64,000 nt of DNA from assembly GCA_021498125.1 (NCBI GenBank), contig JAIZWL010000001.1, forward strand, positions 447,434 to 511,433, in the 5' to 3' direction. Position 1 is the stretch's first letter, and each line of letters starts with the position of its first letter. Shown piece after piece: positions 20,713-57,802 of this stretch. This DNA is from Candidatus Thorarchaeota archaeon. Lineage in GTDB: Archaea > Asgardarchaeota > Thorarchaeia > Thorarchaeales > Thorarchaeaceae. A model generated the notes under the pieces. It saw nothing but the letters and a program-made list of their open reading frames with translations, made no database searches and was not told the origin of the DNA. Made by a program: the position numbers and the translations under genes.

Positions 20713-22368
20713 ATGGAAATTAAAGAGATTAAACTTGATCCCGTTCCGGCTGAACCTGTCACACATACTACGGGTGGGAAGCCGATCTCACGCTATCACG
20801 TTGAACTTCATACTCCTCATAAGTTGCCTTACACTACTCAGTCAATATGTCCTGACTGTCTCATGATTGATGATGTTGTACATGTGATTGATGCTGAAGT
20901 GTATGAGGAAGACGGGAAAGTAATGTACCGAAAGACTTGTGAGAAGCATGGTGAGTTTGTTGATGTTTACTGGGGCGATGCCGACATGTGGCGCAGAGCC
21001 CAAAAGTATTGGTACAAGACTGTTGGACTTGATAATCCCCGTACCGAGACAGTGAACGGCTGTCCTAATGATTGCGGTCAATGCCCCGAGCACAAGTCGC
21101 ATACCGCACTGGCATTGATGGATATTACAAACCGTTGTAATCTGCGTTGTCCAATCTGTTTTGCTCATGCCGCAGAATCAGGAAAGGTCTATGAACCAAC
21201 TCCTGAAGAAGTAATTGAGATGATGAGGAATCTGCGGAGCAATCTCCCGGTTCCTGCTCCCGCTTTGCAATTTGCTGGTGGTGAGCCTACGGTGAGCAAA
21301 TACTTGCCACAATACATCCGCTGGGCCAAAGAGATTGGCTTTAGACACGTTCAGATCGCAAGTAATGCCATTCGGCTTGCAAAGAGCCTCGATTATGCTA
21401 AGGAACTCAAAGAGGCTGGCCTCTCTACAGTCTATATGCAGTTCGATGGTGTGACTCCTGAGCCATACATTACCGCACGAGGTTCTAACCTGTTTCCAAT
21501 CAAGCAGAAAGCAATTGAGAACTGTCGGCAGGCTGGACTTGATTCTATTGTTCTTGTCCCAACAGTTGTTCGTGGTGTAAATGACGATCAACTTGGAAAG
21601 ATCATCGAGTTCGCAATCGAGAATGCTGATGTAGTTCGCTCTGTCAACTTCCAGCCAGTCAGTATCACTGGGCGGATTGACTATTCTGCGCGCAAAGAGA
21701 TGCGAATCACAATTCCTGACTGTATCCATCTGATTGAGGAACAGACCAATGGCGCGATTCCATCGACCGCCTGGTACCCAGTGCCTGCGATGATGCCAGT
21801 CGGACGGGCGATAGGACTTATGAAAGGTTCTCCACAGCTCGAACTCAGCTCACACTTTGCTTGTGGGATGGCTACTTTCATCTGGCTCAACGAGGATGGT
21901 ACCTATGAACCGATCACGAACCTTATAGAGGTCGATAAATTCCTCAATCTCATGATCGAGATCGCTAATCTTTTCGCAGATGAGAAGAAGGGTGCAAGTA
22001 CACGTGCCAAGGCAAAGCTTGCTGCTGGAGTCCGACATATCAAGCGCAAGGGTCTCATCAAAGACCTCTTGAACGCATTTCTCTCACGTGGGGACTATGA
22101 CTCACTTGCGAAGTTCATGAAACGAGTGATCATGGTCGGAATGATGCACTTCCAAGATCCTTACAATCTTGATCTTGAACGTGTACAGCACTGTGATATT
22201 AACTACTCTGTCCCAGATGGTAGAATCATTCCGTTCTGCACAATGAATACAATTCACAGGTCCAAGGTCGAGGCGAAGTTTGCTATTCCTATTGAAGAGT
22301 GGCGGGCTCGTCACAGACCATCGCCTGTGGAAGAAGATAGTCTCACGAAACCCTTCACTGCAGAATGA
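20713..22368 (+). CDS. Radical SAM enzyme resembling archaeal tetraether lipid synthase (Tes)
   Basis: A 551-residue radical SAM protein. The SAM [4Fe-4S] motif is CNLRCPICF (Cys142, 146, 149). An N-terminal domain has ICPDC, then RKTCEKHGEFVDVYWG, and a Cys cluster GCPNDCGQCPEH just before the core. This order (rubredoxin-like site, extra Cys cluster, radical SAM, further Cys near the C-terminus such as CGMA, HCDIN and FCTMN) fits Tes, the enzyme that joins two archaeol chains into tetraethers with several Fe-S clusters. Uncharacterised radical SAM paralogues share the layout. A prenyl diphosphate synthase gene 1.4 kb downstream is compatible with membrane lipid synthesis. Confidence 0.65.
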   Translation: MEIKEIKLDPVPAEPVTHTTGGKPISRYHVELHTPHKLPYTTQSICPDCLMIDDVVHVIDAEVYEEDGKVMYRKTCEKHGEFVDVYWGDADMWRRAQKYWYKTVGLDNPRTETVNGCPNDCGQCPEHKSHTALALMDITNRCNLRCPICFAHAAESGKVYEPTPEEVIEMMRNLRSNLPVPAPALQFAGGEPTVSKYLPQYIRWAKEIGFRHVQIASNAIRLAKSLDYAKELKEAGLSTVYMQFDGVTPEPYITARGSNLFPIKQKAIENCRQAGLDSIVLVPTVVRGVNDDQLGKIIEFAIENADVVRSVNFQPVSITGRIDYSARKEMRITIPDCIHLIEEQTNGAIPSTAWYPVPAMMPVGRAIGLMKGSPQLELSSHFACGMATFIWLNEDGTYEPITNLIEVDKFLNLMIEIANLFADEKKGASTRAKAKLAAGVRHIKRKGLIKDLLNAFLSRGDYDSLAKFMKRVIMVGMMHFQDPYNLDLERVQHCDINYSVPDGRIIPFCTMNTIHRSKVEAKFAIPIEEWRARHRPSPVEEDSLTKPFTAE

Positions 22369-36401: not shown

Positions 36402-37685
36402 ATGACTTCTCAGACTGCACTACTCGTACAACTTCGCCGATCATTCGACCCCAATCTGTTGGATGAGTTCACGGCCCTAGCAGAGAGTGCAGGATATACA
36501 GTACTTGATACCTTTGACATCATCGGATATCCCTCTACAAGGTACGCGATCTCCTCCGGGAAGGTTGAAGAAATCAAGACGTGGCTTGAGATTAACGAGC
36601 CAGATGTTGTGTTGTTCTCACCTTTTCTCAAGTCCAGTCAGATGTATCGCCTCATGGAGACCTGGGATGTCGAGGTACGTGACCGTACACAGATCATTCT
36701 AGAGATCTTTGATCGACAGGCTCGAACGCTCCAAGCAAAGCTCCAGATTGATGAGGCGCGCCTTCAGTATGAACTTCCATTCATCAGGCATCAGTTACGA
36801 ATGCGTCTTCAAAAAGAACATACTGGCGCCCGTCCCGTCGGTGAGCAGATCGGAGCCGGAGAGGATCTACTCAACCTTCGTGTCATGGAGATCAGGCGCA
36901 GGATTGCTAATATTCGTGCCAAACTAGAGAAGATATCCCAAGCTCAGGAACTCAAGAGAAAGCGACGTTCCGCTGAGGGATTTCTGGAAGTGGCCCTTGC
37001 AGGTTATACCAATGCTGGTAAGAGTACACTCCATCGTGCTCTGACCGGTTCCACAGTAGAGGTGGCGGACCAACTGTTCACCACACTGAGCACTAAGGCT
37101 GCGACAATGACCGCATTAGATCGGCGTGTGATCCTCAACGACTCGGTCGGATTCATCAGCGACCTTCCCTCGTCACTTCTCAAAGCGTTCAATACCACCC
37201 TCATGGAGATTGGTGGAGCCGATGTCATCGTCGTTGTTATCGATGGGTCTGATTCACTTGATGAGATCCTTCGCAAGACCAATACCTGTCTTGATACATT
37301 CCGCGAGATCGGGGTCAATGGGATTCCGATGATTGCCGCATTGAACAAAATCGATCGCATTGACAATTCAGAGCTGCCCGCTCGCATTGATGCGGTCTCG
37401 GAACTTGTAGGCGAGGTTGTTCCGATCTCCGCTAAGACCGGGGAGAACTTGGACGCACTGCTTGATGCTGTTGAGATGCATCTTCCTCAACTCTCGCGAT
37501 ATTCTCTTAGTCTCCCCTATGGTGACGAGAGCATGTCGCTTCTCTCGTGGATTCATGATAACGGTCTTGTGTATTCGGAAAAATACGAGGAAGACACTAT
37601 CAAGATAGAGGCTGATCTACCAGAGGATGCTGCTCAACGTCTTTTCAAGACGCTCCCTGTTGGTTCTCTTCATCGACTCGAGTGA
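36402..37685 (+). CDS. hflX: HflX-type ribosome-associated GTPase
   Basis: About 427 residues. The N-terminal HflX domain has the Gly-rich/basic segment IRHQLRMRLQKEHTGARPVGEQIGAGE and a coiled coil (LRVMEIRRRIANIRAKLEKI). The G domain has ALAGYTNAGKSTLHRALTG, LFTTLSTKA, NDSVGFISDLP and AALNKIDRID. HflX splits or rescues stalled ribosomes in bacteria, and archaeal homologues bind the large subunit. ATG 36402 after GGAGTAGGTG is preferred to GTG 36399. It leads the co-directional C1 gene set that follows, but a functional link is not implied. Confidence 0.93.
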   Translation: MTSQTALLVQLRRSFDPNLLDEFTALAESAGYTVLDTFDIIGYPSTRYAISSGKVEEIKTWLEINEPDVVLFSPFLKSSQMYRLMETWDVEVRDRTQIILEIFDRQARTLQAKLQIDEARLQYELPFIRHQLRMRLQKEHTGARPVGEQIGAGEDLLNLRVMEIRRRIANIRAKLEKISQAQELKRKRRSAEGFLEVALAGYTNAGKSTLHRALTGSTVEVADQLFTTLSTKAATMTALDRRVILNDSVGFISDLPSSLLKAFNTTLMEIGGADVIVVVIDGSDSLDEILRKTNTCLDTFREIGVNGIPMIAALNKIDRIDNSELPARIDAVSELVGEVVPISAKTGENLDALLDAVEMHLPQLSRYSLSLPYGDESMSLLSWIHDNGLVYSEKYEEDTIKIEADLPEDAAQRLFKTLPVGSLHRLE

Positions 37686-37749
37686 CCATTGCGTTGTACG
37701 TGGTGATTTATCAGGCAATCATATTCTGCCCGGCATGGTGGTCGTTTCA

Positions 37750-38412
37750 ATGATTGCGATGGAACTGAAACCCGTAGAAGAGATCCTTCAGATGTTAGAA
37801 GGTTACCAGAAGATAGTTCTCTTTGGTGATAGTGGCTGTGCCCAGATGTGTGATGTGGGCGGCTATCTTCAACTCGAAGACATGGATGATCTTTTGACCT
37901 CACATGGGAAGACAGTCCTTGGTTACGTCTTTGTGGAGGGTGGAATGTGTGACGGTCACGCACTACGCCGCACAATCGCTGACAAAATGGATATGCTTGA
38001 AGATGCTGATGTGTTCCTTATTCAAGCCTGTGGAGTTGGAGCGCAAATGGTCACAGAGATGATCCCGTCAAAGGAGGCCTTTCCAGCCACGAATTCGGAG
38101 TTTTTAGGATCCACTCCTGAACGGTTCCACCATTATGAGCGATGCTCCATGTGCGGGGACTGTGTGCTTCATCTCACAGGAGGTATATGTCCGATCACGC
38201 GATGTGCAAAGGGGTTGCTGAACGGACCGTGTGGTGGTTCCATGAACGGAAAGTGTGCAGTCAATCCCGACCAAGACTGCGCCTGGCAATTGATCTATGA
38301 CCGTCTGAAAGCACTCGGAAAGTTATCCAATATTCGTAAGATGTGGGGTCTGCGCGATTGGAGTCTGACTCATCGACCTCGGAAGATTGAGCATGTAGAA
38401 ACTATGGTCTGA
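37750..38412 (+). CDS. metV: MetV-like methylene-tetrahydrofolate reductase C-terminal-type Fe-S/zinc protein
   Basis: About 220 residues carrying the MTHFR C-terminal-like domain found in MetV, the partner of MetF in acetogens. The Cys-rich signature is CSMCGDCVLHLTGGICPIT, then RCAKGLLNGPCGGSMNGKC and a DCAW. The N-terminal half has further Cys (SGCAQMCDVGGY, GGMCDGH, QACGVGA). It probably provides the electron entry to MetF through Fe-S centres. The start is probably ATG 37750, or ATG 37735; the longer frame from 37627 overlaps hflX and is unlikely. It lies 200 bases before metF. Confidence 0.85.
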   Translation: MIAMELKPVEEILQMLEGYQKIVLFGDSGCAQMCDVGGYLQLEDMDDLLTSHGKTVLGYVFVEGGMCDGHALRRTIADKMDMLEDADVFLIQACGVGAQMVTEMIPSKEAFPATNSEFLGSTPERFHHYERCSMCGDCVLHLTGGICPITRCAKGLLNGPCGGSMNGKCAVNPDQDCAWQLIYDRLKALGKLSNIRKMWGLRDWSLTHRPRKIEHVETMV

Positions 38413-38609
38413 CCTGCAACAAGTGAGTCTACTGATGACAGACTGAATCATCTCTATCGGTTAATTCTGTAGTATTTGATGAAGTATGAACTATATTCTT
38501 TGGCCGATTTTCAATTGACTTGCTCATTTGCCCATGGTTGGAATCAAAACAGATATAGGCTAACATCAATCGGCCAAGGTAGTCAACAGATGTAGACAGA
38601 GAGGTGTAA

Positions 38610-39533
38610 ACACTCACTAAATTACAGAGATTACTTGAAAATGGCGAATTTGTTGTAACTTCTGAAGTCGGGCCTCCTCATGGTTCTGACAGCAGTCTTT
38701 TGACAACAAAAATAAATCAATTGAAAAAACACTGCGATGCCATTAACATCACTGACAATGTTCGTGGAATTCCCTCCATGGATAGCATGGTCTGTTCACA
38801 TTTTGTGCTTCAGTCTGGCGCTGAGCCGGTCATGCAAGTTTCGGCACGAGATCGGAATCGCATTCTTTTGCAAAGTTCTCTATATGGTGCGTATGCATTA
38901 GGAATCAGAAACGTGCTCTTCATCACAGGGGATCACCCTCGACATGGGACACATCCTCATGCAAAGGTGGTCTTCGACTTTGATTCGATTCAGGCCCTTC
39001 AGATTGCCCGAGGCCTCATGGATGGGACCGATCTTGCAGGCCAAGAGCTTGAGGGCGTTCCGGAATTCTTTCTTGGAGCGACCTTCAATCCCTATGCTGA
39101 CCCGCTGGAACTTCAGGTCTGGCGTGTTGAGAAGAAACGCGACTCTGGCGCGAAGTTCTTTCAGACACAGGCCATCTATGATCTCTCCCGCTTTGAGGAG
39201 TTTATGAACGGAGTACGTCGTCTTGATGTTCATGTCTTGGCGGGGGTCATCCCTCTAAAAGGTCCCAAAATGGCTCGATTCATGAACAATAGGATTCCCG
39301 GTATCGTGGTTCCCGAAGAGATTATTACCCGTCTTGAACGAGCAGGAACTGGTCTGACCGGAAATGAAAAACAGGAGGCCGTCAGAAACGAGGGACTCCT
39401 GATTGCTCTTGAGACCATCGAGGCGCTACGTACGATCGATGGGGTCAGTGGAATCCACATTATGGCCGTGGGTTGGGAAGACAAGGTTTCCGATCTCGTT
39501 GAGCGGGCCGGATTATTCCCGCGTCCTGAATGA
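38610..39533 (+). CDS. metF: Methylenetetrahydrofolate (or methylene-pterin) reductase MetF, no canonical start codon
   Basis: Reduces methylene-pterin to methyl-pterin. The TIM-barrel family features are FVVTSEVGPPHG with the catalytic Glu near the N-terminus, NITDNVRGIPSM, LQSGAEPVMQVSARDRNR, GIRNVLFITGDHP and FFQTQAIYD. Homology begins at about 38616-38640 (TKLQRLLENGEF), yet from the in-frame TAA at 38607-38609 to TTG 38700 there is no ATG, GTG or TTG. TTG 38700 would delete the catalytic-Glu strand. A good ribosome-binding site GAGGTG (38601-38606) precedes, with CTC at 38613 in the expected place. Either initiation is unusual or the assembly has an error here. MetV, MtrH and MtrA genes flank it. 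Confidence 0.88.
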   Translation, partial: TLTKLQRLLENGEFVVTSEVGPPHGSDSSLLTTKINQLKKHCDAINITDNVRGIPSMDSMVCSHFVLQSGAEPVMQVSARDRNRILLQSSLYGAYALGIRNVLFITGDHPRHGTHPHAKVVFDFDSIQALQIARGLMDGTDLAGQELEGVPEFFLGATFNPYADPLELQVWRVEKKRDSGAKFFQTQAIYDLSRFEEFMNGVRRLDVHVLAGVIPLKGPKMARFMNNRIPGIVVPEEIITRLERAGTGLTGNEKQEAVRNEGLLIALETIEALRTIDGVSGIHIMAVGWEDKVSDLVERAGLFPRPE

Positions 39534-39545
39534 TGAGGTGATAGC

Positions 39546-40463
39546 GTGTTCATATTCAAGAAGGAACAGCAGGTAGTTGATATTGATGGCATTCGTCTTG
39601 GTGGACAGCCCGGAGAGAACCCAACAGTTCTGGTTGGGGGTCTCTTCTTCAAGGGGCAACCTATTGTGGAGGACATGAAGGAGGGCAGGTTCAATACTGC
39701 CTTGGCACAAGAGTGGATCGATATGGCTCACCTGATGGTCGAAACGACTGGCCATCCTATGATCATTCAAGCCTACGGTCGAACCCCCACTGCCATGGAG
39801 CGCCATCTGTCTTGGGTCGCTGATAATTTCGAAGGCCCCTTCATGTTCGAGTCCACAAGTGCAAAGGCCCGTGTCCGTGGTATCGAGTACTGTGATGAAG
39901 CAGGCCTTGCGGATCGGGCGATCTATAATTCTATCAATCTCTCAATGAAGGAACAAGAGAAAGAGTTGCTCAGTCAGAGCAATATCAACGCGGCCGTAGT
40001 TCTAGGCTGGTCGCCACGGGCCACATCACTGCCAGATCGAATGGAGACCGTCAAGAGTATGGTGTCTGAGGCTGAGGCCCTTGGCATTGAGAGAATGTTG
40101 GTGGACCCGGCCACACTTCCAGTGGGCGCAGGGTATGGTCTTGAGTATCGTACAACTCTTGCGATCAAGTCCGAGCTAGGTCTGCCTACCTGTCTTGGAC
40201 CGCATAACGCTCCATCCGCATGGAGGTTTCTCAAGCAGGAGGGCTTTAATGACGAGAGCCCTCATCTTGCCTCTATTGTGGCGGCGACTGTGGCTGCGCA
40301 GATTCTGGCCACAGATGCGATCATGTATGGTTCCATGGTTCGGACAAGAGAGGTATTCACGGCAGTGGCCCTGATCGGAAATGCTCTGGCCTCTGCAGCT
40401 GCTGAGGCAAGTCATGCTCTGGGTAAAGAGCTCGAACTCTTCGAACCGAAAACAGAAGAATAG
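39546..40463 (+). CDS. mtrH: MtrH-like methyltransferase subunit, copy 1
   Basis: A homologue of tetrahydromethanopterin S-methyltransferase subunit H, which moves the methyl group from the pterin to the corrinoid of MtrA. It is a 305-residue TIM-barrel protein with VDIDGIRLGGQPGENPTVLVGGLFF, FMFESTSAKARVRGIEYC, AIYNSINLS, MLVDPATLPVGAGYG and CLGPHNAPSAW. The start is GTG 39546 after AGGTGAT. It lies 11 bases before mtrA. Soluble methyltransferases of this family also occur in non-methanogens, where they feed other methyl donors or acceptors. The copy at 41167 is clearly homologous but divergent. Confidence 0.9.
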   Translation: MFIFKKEQQVVDIDGIRLGGQPGENPTVLVGGLFFKGQPIVEDMKEGRFNTALAQEWIDMAHLMVETTGHPMIIQAYGRTPTAMERHLSWVADNFEGPFMFESTSAKARVRGIEYCDEAGLADRAIYNSINLSMKEQEKELLSQSNINAAVVLGWSPRATSLPDRMETVKSMVSEAEALGIERMLVDPATLPVGAGYGLEYRTTLAIKSELGLPTCLGPHNAPSAWRFLKQEGFNDESPHLASIVAATVAAQILATDAIMYGSMVRTREVFTAVALIGNALASAAAEASHALGKELELFEPKTEE

Positions 40464-40474
40464 GAGGCTATAGC

Positions 40475-41170
40475 TTGAGTGAATCTGATGGTCGTAAGTG
40501 GCCTCCCGCTCCCGGTGACTACGAGATTGGAAACCCCTCTGATTCAGTCGCCATATGCACCTTGGGGAAAAAGTTTGACGTGCCTACTGAATACGCAATT
40601 ATAGGCACATGCAAGACCGAGAATATTGGAATTGAACGTGTGCTTATCAATGTCATATCCAATCCACACATTCGCTATTTCATTCTGGCTGGCCCTGAGA
40701 TTCCCGGTCATAGAACTGGGACTTCTCTTCGAAGTCTTCACAAGAATGGGGTTGATCCATCTACACGGAAGATCATCGAGGCTGAGGGGGCTATTCCATA
40801 TATTGAAAATATTCCAATAGAGGCGGTTGAACGTTTCAGGTCACAGGTTGAGCTTATCGACATGATGAACGTATCCGATCCCACACGGATTGCAGAGATC
40901 GCTTCGCAGCTTCATGAGAAAGATGTTGAGCCGTTCTTTGAAGACCCCTTCTGGATCGAGTTCACCCATGATACGCGGAGTTCCGGCCCACGAATATCAA
41001 GTGGGGATATCTTTGTTCTCCCGGAATATGGTCTTGCGCTAGACCCTGCTACTTCAGAACTTGGAGGAGGCGCAACTTCGGCAGTGGTCTCTCTGCCTCC
41101 GAATCATGTGATTATTGAGATCTTGTCCGATGAGTCTGGGACTATTTTGCTTGGAAAGGAGGTACAATGA
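40475..41170 (+). CDS. mtrA: MtrA-like corrinoid-binding protein, soluble form
   Basis: A homologue of Mtr subunit A, the corrinoid carrier. It reads WPPAPGDYEIGNPSDSVAIC, TCKTENIGIERVLINVISNP, then GPEIPGHRTGTSLRSLHKNG, which contains the conserved His of the GHxTG motif thought to ligate cobalt, and AIPYIENIPIEAVERF. It lacks the C-terminal membrane helix of the methanogen protein and has instead a soluble beta-rich C-terminus (SSGDIFVLPEYGLALDP ... VIIEILSDE). The start is TTG 40475 behind TAGGAGG. Its stop overlaps the ATG of the second mtrH. Confidence 0.9.
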   Translation: MSESDGRKWPPAPGDYEIGNPSDSVAICTLGKKFDVPTEYAIIGTCKTENIGIERVLINVISNPHIRYFILAGPEIPGHRTGTSLRSLHKNGVDPSTRKIIEAEGAIPYIENIPIEAVERFRSQVELIDMMNVSDPTRIAEIASQLHEKDVEPFFEDPFWIEFTHDTRSSGPRISSGDIFVLPEYGLALDPATSELGGGATSAVVSLPPNHVIIEILSDESGTILLGKEVQ

Positions 41171-42105
41171 TGTTTGCGTTTGAGAAAGAACAGGTCGTCT
41201 ATACTATTGGTGATGTCCGAATTGGGGGATCTCCTGGAGAGAACCCGACAGTCCTTGCGGGGTCGATATTCTACGAAGGCGATAAGATCGTTGAAGATGC
41301 CGTTCATGGAGTCTTTGATCGTAAGACCGCGGAGAGCCTCATAAATAGACAGGACGAGCTAGCTGAGATCACTGGTAATCCTACGATTGTTCAGGTGGTC
41401 GCCTCAAGTTCTGAGGCGCTTCTCAAGTATCTCGAATTTGTCGCTGATGTCACCGATGCGCCGATCATCATTGATTCCACAACAGCCGAGGTGCGGGTTG
41501 CAGGTCTCAGATATTCTGAGGAGATTGGCCTATTAGACAATGTGATCTATAACTCGTTAAACATCTCAGCCACTGCTGATGAACTGGAGGCATTATCAGA
41601 AGTGACCCCGGACTCGGCTATTGTCTTGGCATTCAATCCACAGGACACATCAATTGCTGGCAGGCGAAAGGTGCTTGATGAGGGTGGGCTCGATCTTGAA
41701 CGTGGTCTGTTACCTATTGTCGAAGACCTAGGTATCTCCAAGCCACTTCTTGATACAGCAACCACTGCCATTGGCTCGGGCGCAGGATCGTCTATTGGTT
41801 TCATCTTTGTTGCAAAGGCTACCTATGGGCTTCCTACTGGGTCTGGTGTTCATAATGCTCCGGTCTCATGGCCTTGGCTTCGCGAGTATAAGAAACAAGA
41901 CAAGGCTGCGTACAAGACCTGTGATGTTTCCTCCAGTCTTCTTGTTCTCATGATGGGTGCAGACTATGTTCTCTATGGACCAATCAAGAATGCGGACTTG
42001 GTCTTTCCAGTAGTCGCTATGGGCAATGTATTCATGGGGGAATTTGCAAATACTGAATTAGGGATCGAGCCCTCTGAGAACCACCCCTTCAGCCGGCTAG
42101 TGTAG
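41167..42105 (+). CDS. mtrH: MtrH-like methyltransferase subunit, copy 2
   Basis: A second MtrH homologue of 312 residues: VYTIGDVRIGGSPGENPTVLAG, IIIDSTTAEVRVAGLRY, VIYNSLNISATADELEAL, LLDTATTAIGSGAGSS and SGVHNAPVSWPW. The ATG overlaps the mtrA stop (ATGA), so translation is coupled. Having MtrH on both sides of one MtrA suggests two methyl donors or acceptors sharing one corrinoid protein, or a heteromeric methyltransferase; that is inference. Pterin-binding differences between copies would need structural comparison. Confidence 0.9.
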   Translation: MMFAFEKEQVVYTIGDVRIGGSPGENPTVLAGSIFYEGDKIVEDAVHGVFDRKTAESLINRQDELAEITGNPTIVQVVASSSEALLKYLEFVADVTDAPIIIDSTTAEVRVAGLRYSEEIGLLDNVIYNSLNISATADELEALSEVTPDSAIVLAFNPQDTSIAGRRKVLDEGGLDLERGLLPIVEDLGISKPLLDTATTAIGSGAGSSIGFIFVAKATYGLPTGSGVHNAPVSWPWLREYKKQDKAAYKTCDVSSSLLVLMMGADYVLYGPIKNADLVFPVVAMGNVFMGEFANTELGIEPSENHPFSRLV

Positions 42106-42124
42106 ATCTCTGGAGACAAAGAGT

Positions 42125-43546
42125 GTGACCTTCCGTATCGTGAGACCCAAGAGCATGAGTATCTCCTCTCTTCGTCGGGGGCCGTTCTATACGGTTGCCT
42201 CTGTCGAATTGGGGAATACGACGACCAAATGCATCATAGTTTCGACCAATCTTAAGACAGGTGAGATGTTTGAGATTGCCAAAGAGGTGCGTCTGACCAA
42301 GACCGTTCGTCCTCCGCGGGATGATGAGTCTGTCTTTGGTAGCACTCTCGTGGGGATCGACTTGACCCGCGAATCGGTGGCTGAGCTGGTGCGTGATGTT
42401 CTTCTTGCTGCTGTCGGGAAGGTCCATCTAGACATAAACGAGGACATCCATTTTGTTGTGCGATCTACAGGTGTGACGGCAGGCTTCGCACACCCTGAGG
42501 ATGTGGGTGAGATGGTGAAAGCCTTGGCCGAGGGCTGCCTTGCTGCAGGAATCCCACCTCGAAAGATGACGGCCTCGATCTCTCCTGCAAATCTTCCTCC
42601 GGGCATTCGTCAATACACATGGCTAAAGAAGGTCTACTTTGATGGTGCCGTTGCAGGATCTCTTCCGCCCTCAAACACTGAGATAGTGGCCAATGAGATG
42701 GAGGGCGAGCTTGTCACAGCCGGTCTAAAGGGTGCTGCAAAGTCTACAACAATTGACTTTCGGAATCCTGTGATGACGCTTGATTTTGGAACGACTCTTG
42801 CAGGACGTATCACTGACAATGGAAGTCCCTATGCTAAGACCGTCGGTTCTTTTGCCGGTCTGGGCGGAGCGATCCCCGATGCTATTATTCGTGGGACCGA
42901 TCTTGTAGATGCCAAGATGGGCAGTGTGATCGAGGTCAAACTCCCAAAACGCTATCGCCTATTGGATATTGCAGATCATTGGTTAGACGTACTCGACAAG
43001 ATAATTCGAGTGGCCCACGTTCCGGATGGGGTCTCCCGTTATGGTACAGTCCCAGTCAATACACGCGCCGCCGCGGAATCCGGTGTCGCCTTGATCGGTG
43101 TGGATGCTGGAACGAACGGTTCAGGACTTGAACAACTACGACGCCTTGGTCAGGAGATATACGAGACCGAAGGTCTCCCTATGCTTATCTCAGTGATTGA
43201 CCATGTCCAATCCAATATTGTTCAGCGTCTTGTGGCGATTGCGGAGTCTGAGGGCCTGATCTTTCCAGAGACCTCTCTCGGTCTCACCGGGCGTGCAATA
43301 ACTTCAGGCGCAAAACCGCGAATCATTGCGAATGCGCTCCATCTCGACAATGGAGAATTATGGACGGCCTCTCACGATCTTCTCTTTGCAGAGGATGGGC
43401 TTGCTATGGGTGCTGGCGTGGCAGCAAGGTGTATGAACTCTCTAGGCACCCCCCGGAATCCGATGGGTGGCAGGCGTGGGGAGGGTTGTGTCATGGCATC
43501 ACGGATGAAACTGCAACGAAGAGATCAACAATCCGATGAGCATTGA
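42125..43546 (+). CDS. Methanogenesis-marker-14-like ASKHA-fold ATPase
   Basis: A 473-residue protein whose text matches my memory of the methanogenesis marker 14 (DUF2114) family: VASVELGNTTTKCIIV as phosphate-1 loop, VVRSTGVTAGFAHPEDV, AEGCLAAGIPPRKMT, KKVYFDGAVAG, ANEMEGELVTAGLKG and MTLDFGTTLAGRITDNGSPY as phosphate-2 loop. The ASKHA nucleotide-binding pattern is shared with corrinoid-protein reactivases such as RamA/RACo, but no ferredoxin-type Cys cluster is present. It directly follows mtrH-mtrA-mtrH and starts at GTG 42125. A role in keeping the MtrA corrinoid active is a reasonable inference. Confidence 0.7.
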   Translation: MTFRIVRPKSMSISSLRRGPFYTVASVELGNTTTKCIIVSTNLKTGEMFEIAKEVRLTKTVRPPRDDESVFGSTLVGIDLTRESVAELVRDVLLAAVGKVHLDINEDIHFVVRSTGVTAGFAHPEDVGEMVKALAEGCLAAGIPPRKMTASISPANLPPGIRQYTWLKKVYFDGAVAGSLPPSNTEIVANEMEGELVTAGLKGAAKSTTIDFRNPVMTLDFGTTLAGRITDNGSPYAKTVGSFAGLGGAIPDAIIRGTDLVDAKMGSVIEVKLPKRYRLLDIADHWLDVLDKIIRVAHVPDGVSRYGTVPVNTRAAAESGVALIGVDAGTNGSGLEQLRRLGQEIYETEGLPMLISVIDHVQSNIVQRLVAIAESEGLIFPETSLGLTGRAITSGAKPRIIANALHLDNGELWTASHDLLFAEDGLAMGAGVAARCMNSLGTPRNPMGGRRGEGCVMASRMKLQRRDQQSDEH

Positions 43547-43600
43547 CTGCTTCGTAGTCTTTAACTAGCATTGCCTTGTCGTCCTGTTGAGGCCACTCTA

Positions 43601-44377
43601 ATGCTTGTCATTCCGATCAAGACCCGAATCATTCAACCAGATGACGATTTTATCGATGTTCTTCTTGAAGGTCTATCGAAGACCGGATACGAGATCGAAG
43701 ATGGTGATATCCTTGGTGTTGCCGAGACCCCTCTTGGAACCACTGAGGGTCAGATCGTCCGACTTGAGGACGTTGAGGTTTCCCCCAAGGCCCGAGAACT
43801 TGCAGAGAAATACGATATTGTTCCAGAAGTGGCCGAGCTGGTCGTTCGAGAGGCCGATGAGATCCTTGGTGGGGTCTCTCATATCATGCTCACCATCAAA
43901 GACAATACCCTGATGGCTAATGCAGGTGTTGACAAGTCTAACGTGCCACCCGGTTATGCCTCTCTTCTCCCCAAAGACTCACGAGCAAGTGCCGAGCGTC
44001 TACGTCAAGAGATATACTCTCGTCTTGGTAAAAAGATCGGTGTGATTGTCATCGACAGTCGCACGCAACCCTTACGACTGGGGACCATTGGAATGGCGCT
44101 GGGGGTCGCAGGTTTCAGACCAGTTGTAGATGAACGAGGGCATAAGGACCTCTTCGGGAATGTATTGCGTGTGACACGTCGTGCAGTTGCTGATAATCTG
44201 GCATCTGCGTGTACGGCTGTCATGGGGGAGTCAAGCGAGTCAATACCCGCAGCCCTCATCAAAGATCCTCCCGCAGAAATGGTGGATGCGTCCTTCTCCT
44301 CATCTGAGATGTGGATCAGTCCTGATGAATGTCTATATATGGCGATCTTTGACCAGTGGCGCCCGCACAAGAAATAG
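43601..44377 (+). CDS. cofE: Coenzyme F420:L-glutamate ligase
   Basis: Adds glutamate residues to F420-0. CofE features are VIPIKTRIIQPDDDFIDVL at the N-terminus, EDGDILGVAETPLGTTEG, KIGVIVIDSRTQPLRLGTIGMALGVAG and VTRRAVADNLASACTAVMGE. The length of 258 residues from ATG 43601 is normal; a TTG 10 codons upstream is less likely. Its place after the Mtr-like set suggests F420 serves the same C1 route, for example in methylene-pterin oxidation or reduction, but the other F420 genes are not here. Confidence 0.92.
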   Translation: MLVIPIKTRIIQPDDDFIDVLLEGLSKTGYEIEDGDILGVAETPLGTTEGQIVRLEDVEVSPKARELAEKYDIVPEVAELVVREADEILGGVSHIMLTIKDNTLMANAGVDKSNVPPGYASLLPKDSRASAERLRQEIYSRLGKKIGVIVIDSRTQPLRLGTIGMALGVAGFRPVVDERGHKDLFGNVLRVTRRAVADNLASACTAVMGESSESIPAALIKDPPAEMVDASFSSSEMWISPDECLYMAIFDQWRPHKK

Positions 44378-44487
44378 CTATTTAAGACGGCCTCCTCCTC
44401 TCTCTCTTGTGTCTATCTCTGTTACCATTTGAAAAGACAAAAAAGGGACATTAACCGCATTTGCAATACTTCTGTGGAGATGTACAA

Positions 44488-45831
44488 ATGAATGAGAAAA
44501 CGGTTCTCCTCGACGTGATGACCGCTGGCGCCTCAGGTGATATGTTTCTCTCGGCTCTCATTGATCTACTCGATGATGATAATGCCTTGGTCCCTGTTGC
44601 AGCAAGCCTGCTCATCTACGATCCTACTATCCGCGTGCATGTCGATAAAGTCGAGGATGGCCGGACAATAAAGATCACTCATGATCAAGGGCTCAGGCTC
44701 TCTCCCGAATCTCTCAGAGAGATCATTACTGGAGTCTCTGAAGAGCTGGAACTCTCTAAGCAATCTACCACTTTTGCACTGAAGGCCCTTCAGGAGATCA
44801 TGGAGGCCGAATCACGGGCTCATGACATGCCCGTTGAAAAATTACATCTTCATGAAACCGGTTCAGTCGATACAGTTCTGGACATTGTAGGAACTGCATA
44901 TCTTCTCGAAAAGGCCGGACTGATGAGTAAGACTCGCTTTCTCTCTACCCCTGTTGCTGTTGGAAGCGGTACGATTCAGATCGAGCATGGTGAGATGGAA
45001 GTGCCTGTTCCTGCTGTTGCTGAGCTTCTTGTATCTCATGAAGTGCCATTCATCACTGGAGATGCAAAGACAGAGGTTCTTACTCCAACAGGTGCGGCAA
45101 TCTTGGTCTCATTAGTAAATGAGTTTGTGGACTCGACTGATGGGTTCGATGTTATCCGCTCCGGTGTTGGTTACGGATCACGTGACTTGGGAGAGGTCCC
45201 AAATAGAATGAGAATTCTTGTTGGAACCCCACAGACCATTCCTCCTGTTTTTACCGCAGAGACCCCCACAGAATCTACGCCAATCAAGACCCAGACACCG
45301 CATACACAAGCTGCGCAACCACACTCACACCCCCCCTCAGAGGCTATCGTCATGCAGCAAGGTTGGGACACAGATAATGTGATTGTTATTGAGGCCAATG
45401 TGGACGATGTTGATGGTGAAGCCATCGGTACGATCTTTGATGCCCTGTTGAAAGAGGGCAATGCCTATGATGTCGTCATGATTCCGGCCTATGGTAAAAA
45501 GAATCGCCCATGTTATGTTGTCAAGGTCATTACAACCGAAGAAAATCTTACGAAAGTCGCCGAGATAATGGTCCGTCATCTAGGAACACTGGGTGTTCGG
45601 TATACCAATTGGAGCCGATTAAAAGCATCTCGTGAGGTCATAGTCTGCCGCTTGGAGGTGGACGATAAGGAATACATGGTGCGGGTCAAGATCTCGCGTG
45701 GACCAAATGGTGAAATCATCAATATCAAGCCGGAGGCCGATGACTTGGTTAAGGTTTCTGCTGAGACTGGTATCCCTGTTCGTGAGATCAAACCTCGTAT
45801 TGCTCTCCAAGCCTATGCGGTCACGGAATGA
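44488..45831 (+). CDS. larC: Nickel-pincer cofactor biosynthesis protein LarC
   Basis: LarC inserts nickel into the pyridinium-dithiocarboxylate cofactor of lactate racemase and related enzymes. The N-terminal domain has LDVMTAGASGDMFLSALIDL, LHLHETGSVDTVLDIVG and LTPTGAAILVSL. A Pro/His-rich linker (HTQAAQPHSHPPSE, about residue 280) separates it from the C-terminal metal-binding domain (VIEANVDDVDGEAIGTIFDA, MIPAYGKKNRPCYVV). ATG 44488 is preferred. The length of 447 residues is usual. No larB or larE is in the window, so its target enzyme is not known. Confidence 0.92.
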   Translation: MNEKTVLLDVMTAGASGDMFLSALIDLLDDDNALVPVAASLLIYDPTIRVHVDKVEDGRTIKITHDQGLRLSPESLREIITGVSEELELSKQSTTFALKALQEIMEAESRAHDMPVEKLHLHETGSVDTVLDIVGTAYLLEKAGLMSKTRFLSTPVAVGSGTIQIEHGEMEVPVPAVAELLVSHEVPFITGDAKTEVLTPTGAAILVSLVNEFVDSTDGFDVIRSGVGYGSRDLGEVPNRMRILVGTPQTIPPVFTAETPTESTPIKTQTPHTQAAQPHSHPPSEAIVMQQGWDTDNVIVIEANVDDVDGEAIGTIFDALLKEGNAYDVVMIPAYGKKNRPCYVVKVITTEENLTKVAEIMVRHLGTLGVRYTNWSRLKASREVIVCRLEVDDKEYMVRVKISRGPNGEIINIKPEADDLVKVSAETGIPVREIKPRIALQAYAVTE

Positions 45832-48627: not shown

Positions 48628-49197
48628 ATGGTAACTGCACTATTCAAGGTCGTTCTCATGGGCGATGGTTCTGTTGGCAAGACGAGCCTGAGGCGATCAT
48701 ATATGGGTGAGAACTTTCGGGCATCCTACATGATCACGATTGGCGCGGATTTTGCCGTCAAGAAGATGTCTCTGGAAGGGGGCCATGAGGTCAGCATTCA
48801 GATATGGGACTTGGCAGGTCAAGAACATTTCAAGAATGTACGATCCACATTTTACAAAGGCGCTCAGGGTGCATTGGCGGTGTACTCCACTGTTGAACGA
48901 TCTTCTTTCGAGAATCTGCGAAATTGGATAAACGAGTGCTGGGGTAATGCTGGCAAGAAGATTCCTATAGTTGTGATCGGTAACAAGATTGATCTCCGAG
49001 AGCAGTTCCAAGACAATCCTGCAATGAAACAGAGTATTGTCACGACAGCAGAGGGGCAGAAATTCGCTAAAGACCTTCAGGCACGCGAGGGGGTTCATAC
49101 ATCCTTTCTTGAGACCTCTGCAAAGACTGGCCAGAATGTAGAGGCCGCATTTCTTGAGCTTGCAATCAAGATTCTCGAGGCTGGAGGGCTCGCATAG
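48628..49197 (+). CDS. Rab/Ras-like small GTPase
   Basis: A 189-residue small GTPase of the eukaryote-like Ras superfamily found in Asgard archaea. G1 MGDGSVGKTSL (11-21), TIGADFAVKKM at switch I, IWDLAGQEHFKNVRSTFY at switch II with the Rab-typical WDxAGQE and a YKGA-type continuation, G4 GNKIDL and G5 ETSAKTG. There is no C-terminal Cys, so no prenylation site of the eukaryotic kind; membrane attachment, if any, is by another route. The ATG follows TTGGTGGTCACAAT. A WD40 gene follows in the same direction. Confidence 0.93.
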   Translation: MVTALFKVVLMGDGSVGKTSLRRSYMGENFRASYMITIGADFAVKKMSLEGGHEVSIQIWDLAGQEHFKNVRSTFYKGAQGALAVYSTVERSSFENLRNWINECWGNAGKKIPIVVIGNKIDLREQFQDNPAMKQSIVTTAEGQKFAKDLQAREGVHTSFLETSAKTGQNVEAAFLELAIKILEAGGLA

Positions 49198-49293
49198 TCT
49201 TTTCATGGGCCTTGAACGGCGCAAAGTCTCTATTCATAAGACTTTTAGAGCCAAAAATCTGGCTCATCAAGTGAGTTTGCAGGAGTGACTATT

Positions 49294-50421
49294 ATGGCAT
49301 CAGAGGAATTATCCCTCTTTCTAAAACCAAAGATTCTACGACCACAGGCTTCTCATGGTTCAGAGATCACTCGGCGCTTTGCAATGAATCGAGTCGGTAG
49401 AATGATTGCCGCAGCAATGCAGGATCGAAGCATTCGCTTCTTTGATGTAGAAAATGGTACTGAGGTTCAGAAGATCCAGGATGATTTCCTCTGCACTTCT
49501 ATTGCCTTTAGTCCACGTGGCGATATTGTAGTGACTGGTGGTGTAGATCGGCTCATCAAGATCTGGGACATCAAGACTGGTGAGCGTCTGGCAACATTGG
49601 AGGGTCATTCTTATCCGATTCTTAGTCTATCGTTCTCACCTGATGGGGATAAGTTCGTGTCAGGTAGTGGGGACACCACGCTCATGGTCTGGGATGTTGA
49701 TAATCTTCAGAGCCTCCATCATCTCAAGGGTCACTCTCTGTATGTGGTCGGGTGCGAGTGGGACCCCTTGGGCAATCGCATTATCTCGGCAGGAGTTGAT
49801 GGAGCGATTGGCGTCTGGGACCCGAACTCTGGTGAACAGATCGATTGGATTCAGGAACATCGTACTGCTGTGCACTCAATTCATTTCTCATCTGATGGAT
49901 CTCTTCTTGCATCGGGCTCGTCCGATCTCAGTATTGTGATCTGGGACGCGACGGGAAAGTCCCTTGCCAAACAGAAAAAGCTCATGGGTCATTCGGCAGA
50001 GGTCAGGACTGTGGCCTTTAGCTCCGATTCCAAATATCTTGCATCCGGCTCCAGTGACAAAGACCTCTTCATCTGGAAACTGGACGATTATACACGTGCG
50101 GGTGAGAGTACCACATTCAGTGAGGTGGATGGTCTGGAATGGCTTCCTAACACGCACTCTTTCATAACGGCTGATGGTACTGGTGCTATAGTCCGTTGGG
50201 AAGTGAACGAGCTTGGCTCAATTCTTGCTCCCTTCAATGCGTTGCTTGCAGAGATACAATCAGACACGGATCATTCTCGTCGTGATGAACTGATTCAAAA
50301 GTATGAGGCACTCAAGTCACAATACGATCCTGAGGTCCTTCGAGATAAGCGTGTTTTCTATGCCCTATGGCAATGTCGAAAGGGTCTAGGCCTCCTGAAA
50401 GGGAAACCCCGTGGTGCATAG
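49294..50421 (+). CDS. WD40-repeat beta-propeller protein
   Basis: About 375 residues with roughly seven WD40 blades; good repeats end in WDIKTGE, WDVDNLQ, WDPNSGE, WDATGKS and WKLDDY, each preceded by a GH dipeptide and an SPDG/SSDG turn. A C-terminal helical segment (DHSRRDELIQKYEALKSQ) extends beyond the propeller. Such proteins scaffold complexes; the neighbouring small GTPases make a signalling or trafficking scaffold plausible. ATG 49294 lies 8 bases after AGGAG, preferred over the in-frame GTG 49285 within that site. Confidence 0.92.
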   Translation: MASEELSLFLKPKILRPQASHGSEITRRFAMNRVGRMIAAAMQDRSIRFFDVENGTEVQKIQDDFLCTSIAFSPRGDIVVTGGVDRLIKIWDIKTGERLATLEGHSYPILSLSFSPDGDKFVSGSGDTTLMVWDVDNLQSLHHLKGHSLYVVGCEWDPLGNRIISAGVDGAIGVWDPNSGEQIDWIQEHRTAVHSIHFSSDGSLLASGSSDLSIVIWDATGKSLAKQKKLMGHSAEVRTVAFSSDSKYLASGSSDKDLFIWKLDDYTRAGESTTFSEVDGLEWLPNTHSFITADGTGAIVRWEVNELGSILAPFNALLAEIQSDTDHSRRDELIQKYEALKSQYDPEVLRDKRVFYALWQCRKGLGLLKGKPRGA

Positions 50422-50432
50422 GCCTCTCATCA

Positions 50433-51014
50433 TTACGGCTTCGTTGTCACCGAATCGATCATTATCTCACAGAGCTTGACAAAAGATTCCTCGACATTAT
50501 GTCCAGTTAATGCACTTGACTCGACATAGATCGAGTCTATTTTCCGTGCATATTCCTCTCCCTCTTCGGCCGATACTATTCTACTGTCCTTGAGATCTAT
50601 CTTGTTGGCGACGACAATGAGCGGGATCTCTCGATTGAGGCTGTCGAACGCCTCTTTCCTCCACCTGTCGAGATTTATGAAGGTCCTTCTTCGTGTGACA
50701 TCATAGACCAGCAGTCCGCCTCGTGCACCACGATAAAATGATTGGCGAACCACTTCAAATCGCTGCTGACCTGCCAGATCCCAGACCTGTACTGTCACGG
50801 TTGCATCTCTGCTTGGCACATCTATTCTTTTGATAGCAAAATCACTACCAATGGTTCGTTTGTAATCAGACTCAAAGTAGTCCTCTGTGAACCTCATGGT
50901 TAATGCAGTCTTGCCCACGGCTCCATCTCCCAGCATTACCACTTTGAATCGGTACTCTGACGGCAAGTACTTCACAACCTCACACTTTCCTCTGACAATG
51001 CGCCTTAAAACCAT
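50433..51014 (-). CDS. Second Rab/Ras-like small GTPase
   Basis: About 193 residues. G1 LGDGAVGKTALTMRF, switch I TIGSDFAIKRI, switch II VWDLAGQQRFEVVRQSFYRGA, G4 VANKIDLKD and G5 ESSALTG. A longer frame extends to 51401 but its extra 129 residues are the antisense of the roadblock gene and have non-protein-like composition, so ATG 51014 is chosen (ATG 51047 is possible). No C-terminal Cys. It is divergent from the roadblock gene, 100 bases away, an arrangement that favours a GTPase-regulator pair. Confidence 0.9.
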   Translation of the reverse strand: MVLRRIVRGKCEVVKYLPSEYRFKVVMLGDGAVGKTALTMRFTEDYFESDYKRTIGSDFAIKRIDVPSRDATVTVQVWDLAGQQRFEVVRQSFYRGARGGLLVYDVTRRRTFINLDRWRKEAFDSLNREIPLIVVANKIDLKDSRIVSAEEGEEYARKIDSIYVESSALTGHNVEESFVKLCEIMIDSVTTKP

Positions 51015-51115
51015 TGTCCGCAAGTAGTGTTTATGATATTTGGGCATGCGCGCGCATGATTTAATAAGAGAATGCGCAAACTGAGATATGGTCATCAGTG
51101 AGAGATGAAGTTGCA

Positions 51116-51493
51116 ATGAAACGCCCCGATTATGCAGCCCTTGCAGGAATACTTGAAGACATGAATCAGGAGGGCGGATATACCGCCTCAATACTTGCCA
51201 GAGACGACGGCTTGCTGATGGCATCCGCGGCAAATCCGACCACCAATCGGGAGGTCGTTGCTGCAATGTCTGGATATATTGCAGCGACAGCGGAACGAAT
51301 GAGAAAAGAACTTGGTCTTGGAGAGCTTCGTGACATCTCAGTAAGATGTTCTGCTGGTAAGGCGGTGTTCCGTAAGATCTCCCCGGCAGGCAGTCAGCCA
51401 CTTATACTTGCAGCAATCATGCCAAATAATGTGCGTTATCACTCGCGCGCATTAGGAAAGGCAGCGACTAAGATCCGGCGATTATTAAAATAG
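51116..51493 (+). CDS. Roadblock/LC7 domain protein
   Basis: A 125-residue roadblock/LC7 protein: YAALAGILEDMNQEGGYTASIL, DDGLLMASAANPTTNREVVAAM, a helix with ATAERMRKELGLGE, then beta strands (DISVRCSAGKAVFRKI, PLILAAIMP) and a final basic helix. ATG 51116 is preferred; a GTG at 51098 gives six more residues. It lies divergent from a Rab-like gene and upstream of a thiol-redox and two KaiC-like genes. Confidence 0.85.
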   Translation: MKRPDYAALAGILEDMNQEGGYTASILARDDGLLMASAANPTTNREVVAAMSGYIAATAERMRKELGLGELRDISVRCSAGKAVFRKISPAGSQPLILAAIMPNNVRYHSRALGKAATKIRRLLK

Positions 51494-55720: not shown

Positions 55721-57802
55721 TCATTCGCGCTGCCCCACTGGTCTGTACTCTCCCGGTCTTGCACCCCACGTTGCCCAGCCCGATGTTGCTGTTCGCAATT
55801 CCCTTGCCAGTCCAAAAGATTCTCGTACAGGTATCTCCGCTTGAACTTTGTATAAGGACCGTTCCGAGTCTATCTGAAGCACATGCCCCTTTCTCCGCGC
55901 GAGGATCGATGAGATGACCCCCACATGTTCTTCCGGTGCTGTGATCTCAAGCTGTATCCATGGCTCCATGAGAACAGGGTCTCCACTTATGACACTCTCT
56001 CTCGCAGCCTGCAAGAGCGGTTGTGTCACATCCCTCCAGGTTGTTTCTGGTTTCTCGCTATAGAGGTGCGTCTTGAGAATCCTCAGAGTGACTCGTCGCA
56101 TCCTCTCCCCTGCGACCGGTCCACTACGCATAAGCGTTGTAAATGCCTCTCGGACCCATTCGAACCCGTCAATATGTGGACCGATCGTCTTAGAGTCGTC
56201 AATGAGATAGTTTCCTGCACTGGCGTCTGCAATAAGAATGTCTTTCGTGGGTGGCGCATTATCAACAGTGAGTTCAGCCCGCACAGTGAATTGACTAGTG
56301 TCCTCCGCTCCACTTGTGATCTCCGTACCATTGTGTGTCATCTGCTCTTTGAATAACACCATTGGTTCTCCTAGGCGGACTTCTATCCCCTGTCTCGCAA
56401 GCTTTTCGATAGCGATCTCAACATGAAGTTCCCCCGCCCCTGATAGAAGCATCTCGCCAGTCTCCGGATTGACTGTGAACTCCAGTGCCGGATCTGTCGC
56501 CACAAACTGCATAATTGGTTCCTTTATAGAGGACAGTTCACTTAGCCTCTTGGGTTCAATGGTATAGGTGACAACAGCCTCAGTGGGATACTGGAGGTCA
56601 GTCATTGGCCACCCCTCTTTGGACTCTGCATCGACTAAGGTGTCTCCTATGGCGACATCTTGTAGTCCGGTGAGAAAGGCAATATTTCCACAGGGAACGA
56701 CAGGAAGCGCAATACGACTTCGGGACATTGTGATTCCCACCTGCAATGTCTTGTCTACATTTTCTGAACGGAGATTTCGAAGTGGCCGAGCTCTCTCAAG
56801 TCTTCCCGATAGAACACGTCCGGTGGCAACGGTTCCTGCATGTCTGTCTGGTCTGACATCCGCAATGATGATGACGCAATGCCCGTTCTTATCACAGGTC
56901 ATGAGGGATTTGACGAATTGTGTGTTTTCGTGTCCTCTCCAGAATTGAGGGACTCTATATCCCTGTGCCCGAATTGGGTCGGGTGTTGTAGTCACAAGTG
57001 CATCAAGGACAACTGGGGCAAGCGGATATCTCTTCTGTAAAAGCTCCTCTTGCTCTTCATCATACGCCTTTACACAGTCCTCCAAGATCGAAACGAATGC
57101 TCGTGCAAGATCAGATGGACTCTCACTTCCACCAGCGTGGGCCTTCAGGGTTTCGAGTCCGATGCCCCATTTGTCAAGTGCAGAGCCTATAACGAGAGAC
57201 CCCTTCTTGAACGAGACCTCCCATTCTTCCAGTCTATCATCATCAAGATATTTGCCCAGCATCGTGTTAAACTCGCGGACCAGTTTAGTGATCTCGTCTG
57301 CCACTTTTTTCGTTCCAAGTCGTCGTTCAGTGATCAACCGATCCACTTTATTGACAAATAGTGTTGGCCTGACAAGCTCCTGCATGGCCTGTCTTGTGAC
57401 GGTCTCCGTCTGTACCATGATCCCCTCGATCACATCCACGACGATCAGTGCGCCATCAGTAAGCCGTAAGCCTCGTGTGACATGACTGGAGAAGTCAATA
57501 TGTCCCGGTGTGTCGATCAGATGAACTACTATGTCTTTTCCCCTCCATTTATGGAGGAGTGTGATGTTCGAGGCCTTGATCGTGATGCCACGTTCTTGTT
57601 CAATAAGGTCATAATCAAGAAGTCTTGCTCTGGCCGCCACCTCCTCCGAGAGGAGGCCTGAGGCCGCAATCAGCGAGTCAGCAAGAGTGGTCTTACCGTG
57701 ATCAATATGGGCAATAATCGTGCAATTTCTAATTCTCTCTGCTTCATCAATTAGCCCCGCAACTCGCTCATTTACGAACTTCTTGTAGAGCCTTGACAAC
57801 AA
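55721..57802 (-). CDS. EF-2 paralogue (aEF-2p-like) lacking the diphthamide histidine
   Basis: A 693-residue EF-2 homologue. The G domain is intact (IIAHIDHGKTTLADSL, EQERGITIKASN, LIDTPGHIDF, FVNKVDRL), with domains II-V recognisable (FVATDPALEFTVNPETGE, LLSGAGELHVEIAIEKL). In domain IV the HRGxxQ loop is replaced by text around HLYSEKPETTW with no His at the site (about 56020-56085), and the C-terminal RKRKG tail of EF-2 is missing: it ends soon after RTATSGWATWG. Together with EF-2 at 12486 this matches the two-paralogue state reported for several Asgard lineages. The start is TTG 57802, directly after the acyltransferase stop. Confidence 0.9.
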   Translation of the reverse strand: MLSRLYKKFVNERVAGLIDEAERIRNCTIIAHIDHGKTTLADSLIAASGLLSEEVAARARLLDYDLIEQERGITIKASNITLLHKWRGKDIVVHLIDTPGHIDFSSHVTRGLRLTDGALIVVDVIEGIMVQTETVTRQAMQELVRPTLFVNKVDRLITERRLGTKKVADEITKLVREFNTMLGKYLDDDRLEEWEVSFKKGSLVIGSALDKWGIGLETLKAHAGGSESPSDLARAFVSILEDCVKAYDEEQEELLQKRYPLAPVVLDALVTTTPDPIRAQGYRVPQFWRGHENTQFVKSLMTCDKNGHCVIIIADVRPDRHAGTVATGRVLSGRLERARPLRNLRSENVDKTLQVGITMSRSRIALPVVPCGNIAFLTGLQDVAIGDTLVDAESKEGWPMTDLQYPTEAVVTYTIEPKRLSELSSIKEPIMQFVATDPALEFTVNPETGEMLLSGAGELHVEIAIEKLARQGIEVRLGEPMVLFKEQMTHNGTEITSGAEDTSQFTVRAELTVDNAPPTKDILIADASAGNYLIDDSKTIGPHIDGFEWVREAFTTLMRSGPVAGERMRRVTLRILKTHLYSEKPETTWRDVTQPLLQAARESVISGDPVLMEPWIQLEITAPEEHVGVISSILARRKGHVLQIDSERSLYKVQAEIPVRESFGLARELRTATSGWATWGARPGEYRPVGQRE

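Follow-up and report, generated by a model that had tools for sequence, protein, structure and literature searches.

Two MtrH paralogs flank a soluble MtrA in a conserved gene set of Thorarchaeia that includes methanogenesis marker 14

In methanogens, MtrA and MtrH form part of the membrane-bound Mtr complex (MtrA-H), in which His84 is the cobalt ligand of MtrA (PMC10998594) and a basic patch (R..KK) of Methanosarcina mazei MtrH has been proposed to bind the tail of H4MPT (PMC12774963). For Thorarchaeia, the main text of Adam et al. (2022; PMC9635834) describes canonical MtrAH without other Mtr subunits, interprets them as a methanogenesis remnant, and reports a marker, m26, to be “tied to Mtr”; m26 may or may not be marker 14. 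MtrAH is also encountered in Sifarchaeia and Jordarchaeia (PMC9723677), and fused MtrA-MtrH proteins of Atabeyarchaeia, Freyarchaeia, and other Asgards are likewise soluble homologs in non-methanogens (PMC11291895). Methanogenesis marker 14 is encoded near mtr in several methanogens and is missing from the Mtr-less Methanomassiliicoccales (Borrel, 2014; PMC4153887), and the ATP-dependent activator of the Mtr corrinoid has been described as still uncharacterised (PMC12774963). A group of MetF proteins from uncultured archaea, including Asgards, has been proposed to replace Mer and to act on H4MPT (PMC9012536). MtrAH together with m26 in Thorarchaeia, the tie between marker 14 and Mtr, and the replacement of Mer by MetF were known before. 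The locus analysed here shares the lineage, MtrAH without other Mtr subunits, and an Mtr-tied marker with the system of Adam et al. (2022). In contrast, two MtrH copies, an altered active site, the gene order, and persistence without CdhC are not described in the main text of that paper, and neither the two-MtrH arrangement with its active-site split, nor the co-occurrence of marker 14 with the MtrH1-MtrA-MtrH2 trio, nor the conserved order MtrH1-MtrA-MtrH2-marker14-CofE-LarC is described in the literature searched, outside of which lie supplements and most subscription papers.

The window, i.e., the whole stretch of 64,000 nucleotides that was analysed (G000:C1:447434-511433), comes from a Ca. 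Thorarchaeota MAG of 3.11 Mb in 14 contigs that is 98% complete. Scanning named genomes with the marker 14 protein of the window yields matches in Ca. Thorarchaeota MAGs only, up to 84% identical. Families were assigned by Pfam and NCBIfam profile matches, and the rest of the genome was covered by single-family profile searches. Every gene of the set proposed in the first-pass annotation (MetV-MetF-MtrH-MtrA-MtrH-marker14-CofE) matches its family, and LarC, whose functional link to the module is doubtful, follows as a further conserved neighbour:

37735..38412, + strand, MetV, partner of MetF with a Cys-rich C-terminal domain (PF12225, 2e-35)
38610..39533, + strand, MetF, methylene-tetrahydropterin reductase (PF02219, 1.3e-31)
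39546..40463, + strand, MtrH1, divergent MtrH paralog with Glu102 for the catalytic Asp (PF02007, 2.4e-74)
40475..41170, + strand, MtrA, soluble corrinoid protein (PF04208, 1.4e-51)
41167..42105, + strand, MtrH2, canonical-type MtrH (PF02007, 1.4e-112; TIGR01114 over its cut-off)
42125..43546, + strand, marker 14 (DUF2114), predicted ASKHA-fold ATP-binding protein (PF09887, 1e-186; TIGR03285, 9.5e-181)
43571..44377, + strand, CofE, F420-0:glutamate ligase, conserved neighbour (PF01996, 1.2e-69; conserved order)
44461..45831, + strand, LarC, nickel-pincer cofactor protein, conserved neighbour (PF01969, TIGR00299; conserved order)

The seven genes from MetV to CofE had been described as co-directional and mostly tightly spaced. 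All of them are indeed located on the + strand, and from MetF to marker 14 no gap exceeds 19 nt (12 nt for MetF-MtrH1, 11 nt for MtrH1-MtrA, and 19 nt for MtrH2-marker 14, with an overlap of 4 nt between MtrA and MtrH2), but MetV stands apart, the MetF frame beginning about 197 nt past its end. MetV starts at about 37735 and not at 37627, and for CofE the ATG at 43601 is a more likely start than 43571. In the MetF frame, ATG, GTG, and TTG are absent before 38700, though the conserved frame opens at 38610. Several relatives have a CTG near this opening, and between 38600 and 38700 of the window a TAA occupies the MetF frame where the closest relative has CTG; a non-canonical start or an assembly or start-codon change is possible. 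Elsewhere in the window, a WD40 protein flanked by two Ras-family GTPases is encoded at 48628-51401, the first GTPase being 72-98% identical in relatives, and two EF-G/EF-2-like proteins are encoded at 12486-14699 and 55721-57802, the second one without a match to domain IV.

When the window proteins were placed on 33 stretches around MtrA homologs or this locus, the order TGT-HflX-(MetV)-MetF-MtrH1-MtrA-MtrH2-marker14-CofE-LarC-PolB was found to recur across family f1, which includes the analysed genome, and to be present in almost all Thorarchaeia contigs extending across it. Because the order recurs in this way, the arrangement is not due to chance. MtrA is encoded in 31/37 family genomes, and the six without it include contigs ending inside the cluster and fragmentary genomes. 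CdhC is detected in 18/47 family genomes and not found in 29/47. As the trio persists without detected CdhC in several genomes that are at least 95% complete, the module does not depend on CdhC.

The tie of MetV and MetF to the trio is loose. MetV adjoins MetF in 14 of the 23 family genomes checked, and beside the trio MetV is missing in nine and MetF in one. A MetV beside MetF is commoner where CdhC is not found (13 genomes without and 1 with CdhC, as compared to 3 without and 6 with CdhC where MetV is absent there; f1 loci L033-L064, Fisher p = 0.005 with relatedness ignored). The designation of MetVF as “bacterial-type” is correct by family, although the archaeal and Asgard relatives of this MetF mentioned above have already been proposed as an H4MPT-acting replacement of Mer (PMC9012536). 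In some relatives, large genes lie between MetV and MetF (L038, L040, and L044) or between HflX and MetF (L071 and L073). They were considered as possible methyltransferases and rejected, their products resembling solute-binding proteins, as judged from translations only.

MtrH1 and MtrH2 are not equivalent. With 389 bits to TIGR01114, MtrH2 lies above the cut-off of 271.4, whereas MtrH1, with 247.8 bits, lies below it. Active-site residues were compared by alignment with M. mazei MtrH and with MtgA, using MtgA numbering and 25 sequences per paralog. MtgA of Desulfitobacterium, a methylcorrinoid:tetrahydrofolate methyltransferase, is the nearest single-enzyme structural relative of MtrH and resembles the present system in having a soluble corrinoid partner; its Asp102 is essential, the D102A variant being inactive (PMC7154762). 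MtrH2 keeps Asp102, Asn129, Asp194, and Asn227 (each position in 24 or 25 of 25 sequences) and in most genomes possesses the R..KK patch. In MtrH1, Asn129, Asp194, and Asn227 are kept in 25/25 sequences, but position 102 is Glu in 25/25, Ser/Thr32Gly and His38Gln are fixed, Tyr35Phe occurs in 24/25, and the residues of MtgA that stack on the folate tail are not conserved. Furthermore, MtrH1 of Thorarchaeia lacks the KK patch, the second and third basic residues being missing. From these alignments, the substitutions in the MtrH1 pocket look coordinated rather than decayed. With His87 and Glu102 fixed, MtrH1 was also considered as a zinc thiol methyltransferase and rejected, since Cys216 is replaced by Ser in two genomes, leaving no fixed zinc set.

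Between the window and a congener, dN is 0.14 for MtrH1 and 0.12 for MtrH2, synonymous change being saturated, and by this measure MtrH1 appears as constrained as MtrH2 and under purifying selection. In the phylogeny, the MtrH1 sequences group in a separate clade with a long stem, and the MtrH2 clade has 97% support. Since each clade includes a sequence from G042, a genome of another family, the tree suggests that both paralogs either are older than the divergence of these families or were transferred jointly; MtrH1 thus seems to be an old paralog. Non-equivalent active sites and separate clades bear out the initial notion of two different MtrH proteins around one MtrA. Besides the trio, G042 (L053, L054, and L055) encodes a fused MtrAH and a third MtrA-like fragment.

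Homology of MtrA and MtrH2 to their methanogen counterparts includes the cobalt-ligand His and the pterin site, and the differences from the methanogen Mtr complex consist in a soluble MtrA, a second, divergent MtrH, and the lack of MtrE and Mcr in the genome. MtrA carries the motif GPEIPGH with the cobalt-ligand His (GPExPGH when aligned with PDB 5laa), which is invariant across the family alignments, so that on alignment the residue on which the corrinoid assignment had been made to hinge is present. As first read, MtrA is devoid of a C-terminal membrane helix, the highest 19-residue hydropathy being 1.1. In place of the membrane anchor it has a soluble C-terminal stretch of about 65 residues, for which there is no Pfam match and a structure model of low confidence. 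The fused Asgard MtrA-MtrH differs from this arrangement, being a single chain of about 500 aa that belongs to a separate clade. In L007 and L009 (position 2185), MtrA ends with a TAG stop and shares its frame with the MtrH2 gene after it, which creates long apparent open frames. A pyrrolysine-containing or read-through MtrA-MtrH2 fusion was rejected, since in the sequences read the codon is a normal TAG stop separating genes that are in frame by chance.

The protein initially noted as an ASKHA protein resembling methanogenesis marker 14 matches TIGR03285 over its full length (601 bits versus a cut-off of 274, model positions 1-446/446), and its AlphaFold2 model displays an ASKHA-like fold (pLDDT 76). 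The phosphate motifs ExGNTTxK, with one variable position, and DFGTT are conserved throughout 41 sequences, and assignment to the ASKHA ATPase fold is made with moderate confidence. Foldseek with this model retrieves ASKHA proteins, among which RACo and the complex for corrinoid-protein reactivation occupy places 7 to 20, so that RACo belongs to the better structural matches. However, the TM values for RACo (0.26-0.32) are no better than those for unrelated ASKHA kinases and chaperones. Unlike the RACo/RamA activators, with which the predicted fold would be shared, marker 14 shows no recognisable Fe-S motif of their kind, no Fe-S cluster domain in Pfam at E<=10, and no detectable sequence similarity to RACo or RamA; only Cys138, Cys436, and Cys455 are invariant in the 41 sequences, and a sequence search against the PDB gives nothing meaningful. 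Because the RACo matches have low TM values and are mixed with many other ASKHA proteins, a role in corrinoid reactivation is only plausible.

Marker 14 is encoded in 44 of 228 Asgard genomes, 43 of them in family f1 and the other being G042, the sole genome outside f1 that has the trio. In G042, marker 14 and the trio are on different contigs, and marker 14 is adjoined by CofE and the terminal part of an MtrH2-like gene. Where an Asgard genome has the fused MtrA-MtrH alone (five genomes), marker 14 is missing. As in Asgards it is confined to genomes with the trio, marker 14 probably serves MtrA/MtrH and not the ion-pumping membrane subunits.

The two MtrH copies and the one MtrA of the window are the only ones in the whole genome. 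McrA (PF02249) is absent from it, as is MtrE (PF04206), searched as a proxy for the membrane subunits MtrB-G, the control genomes being positive in both cases, in agreement with the supposition that no full mtr or mcr set exists elsewhere in this genome. CdhC/acetyl-CoA synthase and the methionine synthase families PF01717 and PF02574 are absent as well, again with positive controls. The suggested link to the carbonyl branch of the Wood-Ljungdahl pathway is therefore unsupported here, because CdhC is absent while the trio is kept, as it is in the family genomes that keep the trio among the 29/47 in which CdhC was not found. Exogenous methyl groups, the other source first suggested, might be involved. 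Mch is present (G000:C2:130367-131302, 3.4e-121), as in 43/47 family genomes including the analysed one, and judging from this profile match at least one enzyme of the H4MPT pathway is clearly retained in the genome. The radical-SAM protein encoded at 20713-22368 of the window is the tetraether lipid synthase Tes of an Asgard archaeon according to NCBIfam (644 bits, cut-off 450). It had been considered as a methanopterin methylase because of a zinc-ribbon match and was rejected; it is not evidence for H4MPT.

Family identities, the sites of MtrH2 and MtrH1, the cobalt-ligand His, the absence of mcr, MtrE, and CdhC, the presence of Mch, and co-conservation can be read from the sequences. Our best reading of the whole, which we consider about evenly poised between right and wrong, is that of a soluble corrinoid methyl-transfer module with two MtrH proteins and marker 14 as a maintenance factor. 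In such a module, the methyl group would be carried on the cobalamin of MtrA. MtrH2, with its canonical active site, would exchange methyl groups between methyl-H4MPT and MtrA, and MtrH1, with its rebuilt pocket, would do so between MtrA and another compound acting as methyl donor or acceptor. Methylene- and methyl-H4MPT would be interconverted by MetVF instead of the F420-dependent Mer, and marker 14, as an ATP-binding ASKHA protein, would maintain the corrinoid of MtrA in a usable state, the likeliest means being reductive reactivation or loading of the cofactor. What we infer is the direction of transfer, the substrate of MtrH1, which pterin MetVF uses, and what marker 14 does. More tentatively, and with a rather low probability, MtrA might serve two MtrH of different specificity in a transmethylase between H4MPT and a new donor or acceptor, marker 14 filling the vacant place of an ATP-dependent MtrA activator, in methanogens as well.

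Against the best reading count the low TM values of marker 14 with RACo, its lack of a recognisable Fe-S motif, the loose tie of MetV and MetF, and the possibility that MtrH1 is a partner without activity or with a regulatory function. A catalytically altered MtrH1 could form with MtrH2 a heterodimer or scaffold that takes over the docking role of MtrB, with methyl transfer performed by MtrH2 alone. MtrH homodimers bind MtrB in the full complex (PMC12774963), MtrE is missing from this genome, no MtrH1 sequence retains the catalytic Asp, and the genes are conserved together and spaced very closely, all of which is compatible with such a partner. However, three of the four core pterin residues are kept in 25/25 MtrH1 and the substitutions appear coordinated, and we regard this alternative as unlikely. 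No more probable is the published interpretation of a methanogenesis remnant, as given in the main text of Adam et al. (2022; PMC9635834), by which MtrAH feeds the H4MPT branch with methyl groups or withdraws them from it, in connection with the Wood-Ljungdahl pathway or with exogenous methyl groups, and MtrH1 is nothing special. The retention of Mch and the occurrence of CdhC in 18/47 genomes agree with it, but it would have to account for the trio in well-completed genomes without CdhC, the analysed one included, and it leaves a fixed and constrained second MtrH unexplained.

Methyl-MtrA might also, perhaps via MtrH1, methylate homocysteine and supply methionine. MtrA is a predicted methyl donor for the methionine synthase MesA in methanogens (PMC7857596), and the homocysteine methyltransferase family PF02574 is absent in 47/47 family f1 genomes, together with PF01717 in the analysed genome, to which alone the latter result applies. 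Yet methionine auxotrophy would explain the missing enzymes equally well, MtrH1 keeps pterin-binding residues, and it has no invariant zinc-type Cys set, as Cys216 is Ser in two genomes, all of which makes a function in methionine supply quite improbable.

Regarding the soluble two-MtrH module favoured here, the persistence of the trio without acetyl-CoA synthase or Mcr argues against its being just a remnant in decay. The conservation of the MtrH1 variant suggests a methyl transfer undescribed so far in Asgard archaea. Among methanogens that possess Mtr, marker 14 is conserved; since here it accompanies no more of Mtr than soluble MtrA and MtrH, its role is likely to concern the corrinoid half of the complex and becomes testable with a few soluble proteins.
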